DNA of 11,686 bases. It comes from Pseudomonadota bacterium (GTDB lineage: Bacteria > Pseudomonadota > Gammaproteobacteria > Acidiferrobacterales > Acidiferrobacteraceae). The translations under genes and the position numbers were made by a program. The notes beneath the pieces are model-generated. The model ran no database searches. It was not told the origin of the DNA and saw nothing but the letters and a program-made list of their open reading frames with translations. Positions 3,326-11,682 of the stretch are shown here, piece after piece (the first letter of the stretch is position 1; every line of letters begins with the position of its first letter). The stretch lies in the NCBI GenBank assembly GCA_021797365.1, contig JAJZZU010000049.1, positions 1-11,686 on the forward strand, written 5' to 3'.

Positions 3326-3354
3326 TTGTGGATAACTGGGGCCCGCCCTAGACT
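3326..3354 (+). promoter_or_regulatory. Probable dnaA promoter
   Basis: TTGTGG (3326-3331, 3/6 to TTGACA), a 17-nt spacer and TAGACT (3349-3354, 4/6 to TATAAT) form the best sigma-70-like promoter upstream of dnaA. It would give a leader of about 30 nt. The -35 overlaps a perfect DnaA box, which is why this candidate is preferred: it would explain repression by DnaA itself. Hexamer matches are modest. Confidence 0.4.
3327..3335 (-). promoter_or_regulatory. DnaA box upstream of dnaA (likely autoregulatory)
   Basis: The plus strand reads TGTGGATAA, i.e. TTATCCACA on the minus strand, a 9/9 match to the high-affinity DnaA box. It is the only good box in the rpmH-dnaA gap and overlaps the -35 of the proposed dnaA promoter. 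A single box is more consistent with transcriptional autoregulation than with an origin. Confidence 0.75.
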
Positions 3355-3391: not shown

Positions 3392-4720
3392 GTGAGTCAG
3401 CCGACCGTCTGGAAAAAATGTTTGGACCGGCTCGAAGAGGAGCTGTCCGCGCAACAATTCAATACGTGGATCCGGCCGCTGCAGGCCGAGTGGGAGAAAA
3501 ATTGTTTACGTCTGCTGGCCCCGAACCGGTTTGTGACGGAGTGGGTGAAGGATCGTTTTGCTGAACGGATCGCCGAACTGGCGGCGCAGTATCAGGGTGG
3601 CGCGGGGGCTGTGAGCGTGATCGTGCAAGTCGGGAGCACGTCGACAAAAGGCCCGGTGCCGCCGAAGGCGGTCAGCACCACGCGTCGCGAGACCCCGCAC
3701 AGTTCGCGCCTCAATCCGGATTTTACTTTTGAGACCCACATCGAGGGAAAGTCGAACCAACTGGCACGGGCGGCCGCCCGGCAGGTGGGTGAAAATCCTG
3801 GCGGCGCCTATAACCCGCTTTTTATATACGGGGGTGTCGGGTTAGGAAAGACTCACTTAATGCAAGCGGCCGGGAATCTCCTGACGGCCCATAAACGCGA
3901 GGCCCGGGTGTCTTACGTGCATTCCGAGCGATTCGTGGCGGATATGGTGAAGGCCTTGCAGCATAATGCCATCAACGAGTTCAAGAAACATTACCGTTCG
4001 CTTGATGCCTTATTGATCGATGATATCCAGTTCTTTGCCGGCAAGGAGCGCTCCCAGGAGGAATTCTTTCATACATTCAATGCCTTGCTCGAGGGTCAAA
4101 GGCAGGTCATCATCACCGCCGATCGCTTCCCGAAGGAGTTCGTGGGTGTCGAGGAGCGGCTGGTGTCACGGTTCGGTTCGGGGCTTACAGTCTCGATAGA
4201 ACCGCCGGAACTGGAGACGCGCGTCGCTATCCTGATCAAGAAGGCACAGCAGGAAGGCATACCCTTACGCGACGAGGTGGCGTTCTTTATCGCCAAGCGC
4301 GTACGCTCCAATGTGCGCGAACTCGAAGGGGCGCTGCGACGTGTCATGGCGAGCGCTAATTTCACCGGCCGCCCAATCGATCTTACACTAGCCGCCGAGA
4401 GCCTGAAGGACCTCCTCGCCTTCCAGGAACGCCTGGTCACCATCGCCAATATTCAAAAGATGGTCGCCGAGTACTTTAAGATCCGGGTATCGGATCTGAG
4501 CGCCAAGAGCCGCTCGCGGCAGGTGACGCGGCCCCGGCAGATCGCCATGGCGCTCGCCAAGGAACTGACCCACCACAGCCTCCCCGAGATCGGCAAGGAA
4601 TTCGGGGGTCGTGATCATTCCACCGTGATACACGCTTGCCGGAAAGTGAGCGAGCTTATAGAGGAGGATCCGCGGATCAAGGAGGATTACGCGAACCTGA
4701 CGCGGATATTAACGACATAA
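3392..4720 (+). CDS. dnaA: Chromosomal replication initiator protein DnaA
   Basis: DnaA binds DnaA boxes, forms an ATP-dependent filament, melts oriC and loads DnaB helicase. The 442-aa product has domain I (about 1-80, with [11 protein letters not shown] and [10 protein letters not shown]), a short linker domain II (about 80-105), the AAA+ domain III (about 110-330) and DNA-binding domain IV (about 345-442). Visible motifs are Walker [10 protein letters not shown] (147-155), Walker [10 protein letters not shown] (207-215), sensor 1 ITADRFP (241-247), the arginine-finger region [10 protein letters not shown] (258-267) and the helix-turn-helix signature [14 protein letters not shown] (405-418). 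Two variations are visible: FGSGL where most relatives have FGWGL, and a linker shorter than in E. coli (467 aa in total). The start is GTG at 3392, as in E. coli; GTC TGG soon after matches the conserved N-terminal Trp region. It lies immediately left of the predicted oriC. Confidence 0.98.
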
Positions 4721-4722
4721 GC

Positions 4723-4731
4723 TGTGCATGA
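4723..4731 (-). promoter_or_regulatory. DnaA box (weak), oriC
   Basis: TGTGCATGA on the plus strand is TCATGCACA on the minus strand, one mismatch to TTATNCACA. It begins 3 nt after the dnaA stop and faces opposite to the other boxes. Confidence 0.45.
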
Positions 4732-4768
4732 AAAAGGAAAAAGTGGGCTTTTGCGGGAATGCGGGATT

Positions 4769-4777
4769 TTATGCACA
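4769..4777 (+). promoter_or_regulatory. DnaA box, oriC
   Basis: TTATGCACA, a full match to the TTATNCACA consensus; first of three head-to-tail boxes at roughly 10-12 bp spacing. Confidence 0.75.
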
Positions 4778-4778
4778 T

Positions 4779-4787
4779 CTGTCCACA
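4779..4787 (+). promoter_or_regulatory. DnaA box (degenerate), oriC
   Basis: CTGTCCACA, two mismatches to TTATCCACA. Supported mainly by its phasing, 10 bp after one box and 12 bp before the next. It could act as a low-affinity site filled co-operatively. Confidence 0.4.
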
Positions 4788-4790
4788 AGC

Positions 4791-4799
4791 TTACCCACA
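4791..4799 (+). promoter_or_regulatory. DnaA box, oriC
   Basis: TTACCCACA, one mismatch to TTATCCACA; last of the tandem trio of plus-strand boxes. Confidence 0.6.
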
Positions 4800-4867
4800 G
4801 TCGGGGACGGTAGTTATACCGGGGTTATGGGTCGCTGATCGCAAGCGGATACCGCCTGGAGAGAGGG

Positions 4868-4876
4868 TTATCCACA
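4868..4876 (+). promoter_or_regulatory. DnaA box (perfect), next to the unwinding element
   Basis: TTATCCACA, 9/9 to the high-affinity box. It is the box nearest to the AT-rich segment and is separated from the TAA-triplet run by the 14-nt GC-rich spacer GAAAGGGTGAGGCG. By comparison with basal unwinding systems in other bacteria, it would anchor the DnaA filament that enters the DNA unwinding element. It could also overlap the -35 of a weak dnaN promoter (TTATCC, 18 nt, AATAAT at 4892-4897). Confidence 0.8.
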
Positions 4877-4890
4877 GAAAGGGTGAGGCG

Positions 4891-4930
4891 TAATAATAAA
4901 AACCACAAAAGAGAGATATATAAATCATTT
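4891..4930 (+). other. Predicted DNA unwinding element with DnaA-trio-like triplets
   Basis: TAATAATAAAAA (4891-4902) reads as four consecutive triplets fitting 5'-(T/A)A(G/A)-3', the DnaA-trio pattern for single-strand binding by the DnaA filament. It is followed by AT-rich DNA with GATATATAAATCATTT (4915-4930). Everything from 4891 to 4930 is far more AT-rich than the surrounding sequence. Placement directly after a perfect DnaA box and GC-rich spacer matches the box, GC cluster, trio order. Inference from sequence layout. Confidence 0.55.
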
Positions 4931-4960
4931 GTGACAAACGAAGAGGATAACGGCACCCAT

Positions 4961-6064
4961 ATGCGGATCAACGTGGCACGTGACGACCTTTTAAAGGCCT
5001 TGAGTGTGGTAGGTAGTGTGGTGGAACGGCGGCAGACGAAGCCGATTTTGACGCACGTGCTGGTGACGGCGGGCGACGGGGAGATCGTGCTCACCGGGAC
5101 CGACCTGGAACTCGAAGTGGTGGCGCGTTGCCCGGCGGAGGTTCAGGAACCAGGGAAAGTGACGGTACCAGGAAGGAAGTTTCTCGATATCGTGCGGACC
5201 TTGCCGGGCGAAAGCCTGCTGCGGTGTCAGATAGAGGGGGGGCGTTTCCGGGTGGCGATGGGCAAAAGCCGCTTTCAATTGGCGACGTTACCGGTTGAGG
5301 ATTTTCCGAATCTCATGGATATTCAGTGGGATACGACGTTATCGGTGCCACGGGCCGACCTTCGGCGGGCGATTGAGAAGACGCAGTTTTGCATGGCGCA
5401 GCAAGATGTGCGGTATTACCTGAACGGGGTGATGCTGGAAATGAGTGGCCAGGCATTGAGGGCGGTGGCCGCCGACGGGCACCGCCTGGCGCTGTGCGCG
5501 GTGGAGATGGGTAGCGGGGTTTCGGGGGAACGGCAGGTGATCGTACCGCGCAAGGCGGTGGCGGAGATGGCCCGCTTTCTGGGGGATGGAGGCGTGCCGA
5601 TCGAGCTCGGGCTGTCGGCGAATCATATTCGGGTGACGCAGGATAATTGGGTGTTCGTATCGAAGCTGGTGGATGGCCGGTTCCCGGACTATCACCGAGT
5701 CATTCCGCAGACCGTGAAGCATGAGGTGGTGTTGCCGCGCGCGGCGATATTGGAGATGTTGGGCCGTGTCGGGGTGGTATCGACGGAGAAGTTTCGGGGT
5801 ATTCGCCTCAGGTTCCAGGGAAACATACTGGCGGCAAGCGCTACGAATACGGATCGCGACGAGGCGTGGGAAGAGTTGGAGTTGACGGGGCCGGTGCCGG
5901 AGTTGGAGATCGGTTTCAATGTGACATATCTGGTGGAGGCTATCGGGGCGCTCGAGGAGGAGGAGTTCCTGTTCGGGTGGAACGATAGTAATGGAGGGGT
6001 GAGGCTTAAAGCGGAAAAGAGTGGGGACGATCAGGTCTACGTGGTGATGCCGGTGCGGCTCTAG
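4961..6064 (+). CDS. dnaN: DNA polymerase III subunit beta (sliding clamp)
   Basis: The beta clamp dimerises around DNA and tethers Pol III and other partners. From ATG 4961 the product is 367 aa, close to the 366 of E. coli. It shows LTGTDLELEVVARC, the clamp-family strand near residue 45, and QDVRYYLNGVMLE, ADGHRLALC, SKLVDGRFPDYHRVIP, EKFRGIRL and the C-terminal VVMPVRL, which forms part of the partner-binding pocket. The open frame extends upstream to 4883 and includes a GTG at 4931, but homologous clamps begin at MRINVARDDLLKAL, and the upstream part reads through the AT-rich origin element. The best Shine-Dalgarno, GAGG at 4943-4946, is 14 nt from the ATG, further than usual. It is 33 nt upstream of recF, likely co-transcribed. 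G-ending codons are far commoner here than in gyrB. Confidence 0.98.
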   Translation: MRINVARDDLLKALSVVGSVVERRQTKPILTHVLVTAGDGEIVLTGTDLELEVVARCPAEVQEPGKVTVPGRKFLDIVRTLPGESLLRCQIEGGRFRVAMGKSRFQLATLPVEDFPNLMDIQWDTTLSVPRADLRRAIEKTQFCMAQQDVRYYLNGVMLEMSGQALRAVAADGHRLALCAVEMGSGVSGERQVIVPRKAVAEMARFLGDGGVPIELGLSANHIRVTQDNWVFVSKLVDGRFPDYHRVIPQTVKHEVVLPRAAILEMLGRVGVVSTEKFRGIRLRFQGNILAASATNTDRDEAWEELELTGPVPELEIGFNVTYLVEAIGALEEEEFLFGWNDSNGGVRLKAEKSGDDQVYVVMPVRL

Positions 6065-6097: not shown

Positions 6098-7147
6098 ATG
6101 GCCATAAAGCACTTGGAGGTGGAAGGCGTACGGTGTCTCGCGACAACCTCGTGGAACCTGGATCCAGGCGTTAATGTTGTGATCGGGGAAAACGGCGCGG
6201 GCAAGACGAGTCTCCTTGAAGCGATCAGTCTGGTGTGCACGGGCAAGGCCTTGCGGCCTGGTAGTAGCCGAGGGGCGATCACACAGGGGCAGAACCGATT
6301 ACGGGTAGGGGCGACCTTCGGTGAGGGGCTGGAGGCTGGGGATTTGGTCTATGAAAGGACGCGTTCGCAGCGTGTCTGGAAGTTGAACGATGGGATGTTG
6401 CGGTCGGCGGCGCTCGCCTATGAGCTGGTGCCGGTGATGGTGTTTAACCCCGAGGCACATTACGCGGTCTTGCAGGATGCAAACGCCCGCCGGGCCGGCA
6501 TGTACTGGGGAATGTTCCACGTGGAACCTTTATTTCTGGAGACGTGGAGGCGCTACCAGCGCCTGCTGCGCCAACGGAACGCCGCATTGCGCCTGCACGA
6601 CTCAACCTATCGATTATTCGAGCCGGGGCTCATTCAGACAGGTCTGGTATTGGCGCAATTCTGGCGGAGGACGGTAGAGGCCATCGGCGCGCCATTCGCG
6701 TCATTGACCGAGCGCCTGGGCCTGGGGATGCCCGCAGAAACGCGGTGGCGCCCGGGATGGGATGGGGAATCCTTGGCTGAGGCCCTGGAGCAGAGTCGAT
6801 CCGGTGATGAACGGCTGGGATATACGCAGGTCGGGCCGCACCGTGCGGATATCGTGTTCGAGGTGAAGCAGCGCGCGATTCAAGAAGTGGCGTCTCACGG
6901 TCAACAAAAGATAGTGGTCAGTGCCTGGCGGTTGGCGGTCGTGCAACTGGTTGCGGAAAAAGGCCGCAGGGCGCTCGTGTTACTCGATGATCTCGCAGCG
7001 GAGCTGGATCGACGGCGGCGGGCGGCATTTTATGAAACACTCATTACGCTGAACCTTCAAGCGGTGGTCACCGCCATGGAGCCCGAACCCCTTCCCTCCC
7101 CTATTCCCATGTTCCACGTGGAACATGGTCATCTGCGCGGACCTTGA
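6098..7147 (+). CDS. recF: DNA replication/repair protein RecF, carrying two parS sites in its coding sequence
   Basis: RecF is an SMC-like ABC ATPase that, with RecO and RecR, loads RecA at gaps. The 349-aa product (E. coli 357) shows Walker A GENGAGKTS (30-38, Lys36), RLLRQRNAALR (155-165), GYTQVGPHRADI (241-252), signature SHGQQK (266-271; SRGQLK in E. coli) and Walker B with D-loop ALVLLDDLAAELD (292-304). The usual FRN near residue 12 is replaced by VRC, and the sequence is more divergent than DnaA or GyrB, but all ATPase motifs are intact, so it should be active. Codons 139-143 and 338-342 both encode MFHVE, and both lie within 16-bp parS palindromes. The corresponding E. coli segments are CFHNE and MFTVE. 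It starts at ATG 6098, 33 nt after dnaN; gyrB follows 45 nt downstream. Confidence 0.95.
   Translation: MAIKHLEVEGVRCLATTSWNLDPGVNVVIGENGAGKTSLLEAISLVCTGKALRPGSSRGAITQGQNRLRVGATFGEGLEAGDLVYERTRSQRVWKLNDGMLRSAALAYELVPVMVFNPEAHYAVLQDANARRAGMYWGMFHVEPLFLETWRRYQRLLRQRNAALRLHDSTYRLFEPGLIQTGLVLAQFWRRTVEAIGAPFASLTERLGLGMPAETRWRPGWDGESLAEALEQSRSGDERLGYTQVGPHRADIVFEVKQRAIQEVASHGQQKIVVSAWRLAVVQLVAEKGRRALVLLDDLAAELDRRRRAAFYETLITLNLQAVVTAMEPEPLPSPIPMFHVEHGHLRGP
6513..6528. other. parS centromere site 1 (ParB-binding), inside recF
   Basis: TGTTCCACGTGGAACC matches the bacterial parS palindrome TGTTCCACGTGGAACA at 15 of 16 bases; the last base is C. ParB (Spo0J) loads at such sites and spreads, acting with ParA to segregate origins. 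The site is about 1.6 kb right of the predicted oriC. It lies in frame over recF codons 139-143 (Met-Phe-His-Val-Glu), with silent codon choices (TTC, CAC, GTG, GAA) that complete the palindrome. Confidence 0.85.
7110..7125. other. parS centromere site 2 (perfect), inside the 3' end of recF
   Basis: TGTTCCACGTGGAACA is a 16/16 match to the parS consensus, and the symmetry extends to a 22-bp perfect palindrome at 7107-7128. It lies over recF codons 338-342 (again Met-Phe-His-Val-Glu), 20 nt before the recF stop, and 582 bp from the first site measured between palindrome centres. There is no T-run after it, so a transcription terminator is unlikely. Confidence 0.9.
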
Positions 7148-9610
<2,463 letters not shown>

Positions 9611-11608: not shown

Positions 11609-11682
11609 GCGGGTGTAGTTCAATGGTAGAACTTCAGCTTCCCAAGCTGATAGCGAGGGTTCGATTCCCTTCACCCGCTCCA
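11609..11682 (+). tRNA. tRNA-Gly (anticodon CCC)
   Basis: A complete 74-nt cloverleaf. The acceptor stem is GCGGGTG/CACCCGC with discriminator T and an encoded CCA. The D arm is GTTC/GAAC, and the anticodon stem TCAGC/GCTGA encloses loop TTCCCAA, giving anticodon CCC (reads GGG). The variable loop is 4 nt. The T stem GAGGG/CCCTT (one G-T pair) encloses loop TTCGATT. It lies divergently from thiS. Confidence 0.95.

Follow-up and report, generated by a model that had tools for sequence, protein, structure and literature searches.

Two 16-bp palindromes are present within the recF gene of the DNA analysed in this work, a stretch of 11,686 nucleotides which we will refer to as the window. It is highly probable that both of them are chromosomal parS sites, forming a ParB-loading pair that has been kept in the dnaN–gyrB interval and that fixes the recF codons beneath it together with the peptide FHV(E/K). 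The identification of the palindromes as parS is in itself very likely right. The features of the window upon which this account is based are as follows (position; strand; identity):

3392..4720; + strand; dnaA (TIGR00362, 590.5 bits)
4721..4960; no strand; dnaA–dnaN gap, candidate oriC, with DnaA-box-like 9-mers at 4769 and 4868
4961..6064; + strand; dnaN, left neighbour of recF (TIGR00663, 303.2 bits)
6098..7147; + strand; recF, host of both sites (TIGR00611, 273.7 bits, cut-off 172)
6513..6528; no strand; site A, very likely parS, TGTTCCACGTGGAACC, over recF codons 139-144 (MFHVEP)
7110..7125; no strand; site B, very likely parS, TGTTCCACGTGGAACA, a perfect palindrome over recF codons 338-343 (MFHVEH)
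7193..9610; + strand; gyrB, right neighbour of recF (TIGR01059, 982.9 bits)

The sites in the window and in its closest relatives

The genes dnaA, dnaN, recF and gyrB lie in line in the window, which is an origin region. The 9-mers in the dnaA–dnaN gap were marked with what we take to be the DnaA-box motif, and a third one is found at 3327, upstream of dnaA; this gap is presumably oriC, and sites A and B are located 1.55 and 2.15 kb beyond it, respectively. An ordinary tRNA gene at the end of the window (11609-11679) was the sole Rfam match. Both sites fall in a single recF frame with a spacing of 597 bp, and the codons at both of them are (A)TG TTC CAC GTG GAA, so that the statement of the initial annotation that MFHVE is encoded in the same frame at both places is borne out. 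The positions that it gave for the two palindromes also stand, but the value of 15/16 reported for site A is the match of this site to the consensus, its symmetry being 7 of 8 base pairs. When TGTTTCACGTGAAACA was sought in the window with up to three mismatches allowed, sites A and B were the only two matches (shuffle mean 0.03, n = 200), and one of them differs from the consensus TGTTYCACGTGRAACA by 0 mismatches and the other by 1.

A parS pair in recF is already known from Pseudomonas aeruginosa, and the window joins that arrangement. In the available part of PMC4368675 (Table 1), P. aeruginosa parS1 is TGTTCCACGTGGAACC and parS2 is TGTTCCACGTGGAACA, i.e. the same 16-mers as in the window, and the parts available of PMC3909081 and PMC5521831 place both of them in recF, likewise near oriC. 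The silent mutations made in these sites, at positions 2, 5, 8, 11, and 14 of parS1 and 5, 8, 11, and 14 of parS2, left the coding sequence unaltered (PMC4368675, same part); only in the frame used in the window do all of these fall on the third base of a codon, and the P. aeruginosa sites therefore probably share it, the unchanged position 2 of parS2 being consistent with an ATG. The same source describes ten putative parS sites, with parS3 and parS4 further on, any one of parS1-4 being enough for segregation, in contrast to the two sites at no more than one mismatch in the genome nearest to the window. Further, ParB binding is proven in P. aeruginosa, whereas in the organism of the window it is predicted from sequence.

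The genome closest to the window (G001) shares with it 86% of the sampled 31-letter words, and its RecF (L011) is 98% identical to that of the window. Within its 3,398,398 bp, TGTTYCACGTGRAACA occurs twice at no more than one mismatch, both times at these recF positions, and at one further place with two mismatches. The description of the sites as parS-like, rare, and origin-proximal is thus supported, with two of them in 3.4 Mb, both in recF near dnaA–dnaN, and the motif is not scattered over this genome. The initial annotation had also named a lack of ParA/ParB as evidence against its proposal; parB and parA are present in G001, about 20 kb away across the origin, and a ParB match was found in all 18 genomes of the family. 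The G001 ParB passes the ParB model TIGR00180 (188.1 bits, cut-off 58.45) and agrees with Caulobacter ParB at the contact residues G170, S172, R173, N178, G201, and R204, with R in place of K171 (the Caulobacter numbering assumes a shift of 10 relative to the PDB chain). Besides the main parB, three equal weak ParB-like matches (G001:C1:410992-411444, 2086900-2087352, and 2729409-2729861; 36.4 bits, below cut-off) were observed, which are possibly mobile-element copies. Within the family, TGTTCCACGTGGAACA is found at no more than two mismatches in 17/18 genomes, a site pair spaced by 597-603 bp in 16/18, and both sites within recF at no more than one mismatch in all 10 loci that were fetched. 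A third site, separate from the pair and matching with 0 or 1 mismatch, is present at G003:C52:1032, G014:C2:96745, and G011:C12:24.

The initial annotation also raised the question of whether ParB spreading affects the transcription of recF and gyrB. According to the available part of PMC5521831, excess ParB lowers the expression of the genes around parS1-4 in P. aeruginosa, but no effect is seen at the native level, genes adjoining the intragenic parS1 and parS2 being unchanged in cells lacking ParB or the sites. In Caulobacter, a hot spot for inserted parS has been described around recF and gyrB, with gyrB transcription unchanged (PMC5815017, part available).

Occurrence in Gammaproteobacteria and in genomes lacking ParB or recF

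To the window were aligned 170 RecF genes (171 rows in all) drawn from 274 sampled genomes of one class, which is taken to be Gammaproteobacteria because the recF region of one member (G369) is 87.7% identical to that of E. coli. The 170 loci are a non-random set, to which one search contributed its 30 best matches and another 74 from its listing, and a second search 66 of its 72 matches over cut-off. Most of the sampled RecF sequences are about 30–40% identical to that of the window, and GC3 spans 0.15 to 0.89. Site A differs from TGTTYCACGTGRAACA by 0 mismatches in 68 rows, by one in 69, by two in 7, and by at least four in 27; for site B the corresponding numbers are 98, 35, and 8, with at least five mismatches in 26 rows and an unaligned residue in 4. 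Both sites are present at no more than one mismatch in 119/171 RecF genes and at least one of them in 151/171. Neither is found at up to two mismatches in 14/171, mostly in genomes that do have ParB, and the location in recF can therefore be given up. Five other sites at no more than two mismatches were seen within the same RecF genes. Genome-wide, 235/274 genomes carry a site at no more than one mismatch, two being the commonest number, and a ParB match is present in 262/274 (over cut-off in 260). Two genomes, G135 and G289, are rich in such parS-like sites (12 and 9, respectively). In the family f190 (L188, L189, L190, and L344), site A is lost and ParB is present; the core of site B shows a common change to CATGTG, giving TGTTTCATGTGGAACA or TGTTCCATGTGGAACA. 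These results are best read as showing that the two-site element has stayed in the dnaN–gyrB interval, inside recF in most of the sampled lineages.

The absence of ParB provides one natural test of this reading. In the order to which G269 belongs, site A is present at no more than one mismatch in 0/20 genomes without chromosomal ParB and in 16/38 with it, and site B in 2/20 and 30/38, respectively (nominal Fisher values of 4e-4 and 6e-7, which ignore kinship). The genomes compared were drawn from 99, comprising all RecF-bearing ones without chromosomal ParB and at least one, picked by hand, for each ParB-bearing family. Of the 20 classed as without ParB, 15 had no match, three had a match below cut-off, and two (G369 and G386) had matches over cut-off, which were taken as plasmid or phage copies because Enterobacteriaceae are described as lacking par genes (PMC3909081, part available); G386, and also G307, were so classed by sharing a family code with G369. 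With G369 and G386 regrouped, the numbers become 0/18 against 16/40 for site A and 1/18 against 31/40 for site B. The genomes G149 and G191, which belong to other orders, and G157 stand outside this comparison; neither G149 nor G191 has a ParB match, yet site B is intact in G149, and G191 shows three and two mismatches at the sites. At these positions E. coli has GCTTTCACAACGAACC (CFHNEP) at site A and TGTTTACCGTGGAAAA (MFTVEK) at site B, and the peptides CFHNE and MFTVE had been given correctly for its RecF.

A second natural test is provided by the roughly 50 genomes of the class in which RecF was not detected, of which 23 carry a site at no more than one mismatch and 27 carry none; some of the latter are drafts whose relatives have both sites, and sequence is possibly missing from them. 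All of the site-bearing genomes other than G135, i.e. 22 of 23, were examined, the absence of RecF in 16 of these 22 being based upon a single RecF search. In 17 of the 22, from 11 families, a site is located in the dnaN–gyrB gap; 10 of these have two sites, which are 26-106 bp apart in nine cases and 722 bp apart in one, and seven have one. In G031 a site is present 90 bp upstream of gyrB, dnaN being undetected; the two sites of G100 lie near a contig start, outside the gap comparison; and in G241, G125, and G019 no site was seen between dnaN and gyrB. The sites of these RecF-less genomes were either retained after the loss of recF or have arisen anew.

Sites were found in 33 of 37 genomes from other proteobacterial classes, and these share with the window the same 16-bp consensus and often a number of two or more. 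They differ from it in their location, as none of the 32 genomes with listed sites has a site in recF; coordinates were compared by eye, with G436 unlisted and G391 listed in part. In G417, G423, G468, G391, and G442, perfect TGTTTCACGTGAAACA pairs are found about 1.9–2.4 kb apart, outside recF. In the parts of the literature that were searched, native parS is placed in recF only for P. aeruginosa. No account was found there of the class-wide breadth, the direction of the constraint, or the persistence without recF; earlier notice is possible (parS survey of Livny et al., 2007).

Constraint on codons and peptides at the sites

The rows for the codon analysis were chosen by their peptide; those in which a site is called lost or kept were chosen by a limit of two mismatches, and base counts for the latter are thus partly circular. 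The 14-bp core GTTYCACGTGRAAC is intact in 137 of the 140 genes with FHV[E/K] at site A and in 132 of 136 at site B, where the genes' own codon usage predicts 4.65 and 5.93 cores, respectively, and the maxima of 2000 simulations were 13 and 15. Among the genes whose GC3 is less than 0.35, the core is intact in 31/33 (A) and 23/24 (B). A wider count, in which alone 60 named loci were included as these were found by patterns holding the peptides of both sites (GMYWGMFH and MFHVEHGH) and are thus biased, gave 215/220 and 229/240. Relatives that keep the peptide and break the palindrome, which the initial annotation had put forward as contrary evidence, are accordingly rare (3/140 at A and 4/136 at B).

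The conservation of synonymous codons, a check which it had also proposed, revealed a strong constraint. Of the 73 RecF columns in which one residue occupies at least 70% of the rows, 66 are outside the sites; the five largest modal-codon excesses of all 73 belong to V142, V341, H340, H141, and E143 (0.41-0.57), while the largest among the 66 is 0.22. The F columns, where both codons are allowed by the site, show no outstanding excess. In the FHV[E/K] rows, the third base of codon 1 is G in 140/140 (A) and 135/136 (B), as against expected numbers of 62.6 and 85.8. A tree from which the site columns had been left out requires, for A and B respectively, a minimum of 49 and 68 changes of the codon-1 residue, of 19 and 23 changes of the E/K residue, and of 19 and 18 changes in the presence of the site. 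Positions 5 and 12 covary strongly in plain tables, C going with G and T with A, which gives E or K (Fisher 3.6e-8 for A and 0.002 for B), but the association was not significant when pairs independent of one another on a tree were compared (median p of 0.25 and 1), and it was therefore dropped as proof.

The rows that have lost a site indicate what RecF retains by itself. At site A (27 rows) F is kept in 25 and is followed by Y in 14 or H in 10, with V kept in one; at site B (26 rows) F is found in 16, and the fourth residue is L, I, or V in 24. Two RecF sequences from other classes read LFSHQR/RFRVQE and IFSRRR/TFMVHA at the A/B positions. From this decay of the peptide and from these other-class sequences, F, as well as a hydrophobic residue at B, may be regarded as RecF's own, with H, V, and E/K following the DNA. 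The earlier suggestion that RecF naturally tends towards FHxE or FxVE is thus unsupported in the form in which it was made. As judged from the sequences, the best reading is that the function of the DNA takes precedence over codon choice and determines the peptide.

Alternative explanations and significance

Based upon what is known of the ParABS system, ParB would load on both sites soon after the origin has been copied and slide outwards from them, and ParA would move the loaded ParB, bringing about segregation. Selection acting on the DNA would fix the codons TTY-CAC-GTG-RAA, at which the constraint is observed, and these in turn would yield FHV(E/K) at two places in RecF, superimposed on this protein's own, weaker preference for F and, at B, for a hydrophobic residue.

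The order of cause could also be the reverse, RecF requiring FHVE and the palindrome arising secondarily from conserved residues written in preferred codons. The retention of F at A and of a hydrophobic fourth residue at B in most of the site-less rows means that part of the peptide does belong to RecF. However, preferred codons predict only a few of the cores, which are intact in AT-rich genes as well; FHV[E/K] with free synonymous codons is rare (7/276); V and E/K at A are lost along with the site; neither of the two RecF proteins of other classes has the peptide; and sites are present in the dnaN–gyrB gap where recF is undetected. A protein-first origin is highly improbable in view of these results, and it was rejected by the codon test, the column control, and the genomes without recF.

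It is very unlikely that a different DNA-binding protein recognizes the palindromes and that these merely resemble parS. Noc, a ParB paralogue from the same family, binds a related short palindrome (PMC7383237, in the part available), and the Noc model TIGR04285 gives the G001 ParB a score of 213.9 bits, but this is below its cut-off of 315, in contrast to the TIGR00180 result. The Q173 and R201 of Noc were sought in the G001 ParB and are absent, the parS-type R173 and G201 being found instead (PMC7383237, same part); further, the same sequences have been proven to be ParB sites in P. aeruginosa (PMC4368675, as available), and relatives that lack chromosomal ParB have degraded versions of them. 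A third explanation is that two palindromes were inherited by chance or ancestry, without selection, in a slowly changing gene. The sampled genes are indeed related and their rows are not independent, but the expected number of matches in the window at up to three mismatches is only 0.03, most RecF sequences have diverged to 30–40% identity over a wide range of GC3, and the third base of codon 1 stays G while its residue changes repeatedly. The modal-codon excess at the site columns is also the opposite of equal silent divergence, and this explanation is exceedingly improbable.

In the class-wide form of the parS reading, which we consider probable, the Gammaproteobacteria centromere is an ancestral two-site element fixed between dnaN and gyrB, in most cases inside recF, where it dictates two peptides of this DNA-repair protein; it can persist as an intergenic pair where recF is missing, and where ParB is missing sites and peptides alike decay, leaving relics such as the MFTVEK of E. 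coli. If this is true, it would be a clean case in which a DNA-binding site has governed, through deep time, which amino acids a conserved protein carries, and natural tests of it are available in two directions, viz. the absence of ParB and the absence of recF. The conserved FHV(E/K) of RecF would then not be read as a reflection of RecF function, and the likely centromere could be placed in uncultured Gammaproteobacteria. It would also pose a testable question, namely what keeps the loading element in the dnaN–gyrB interval.
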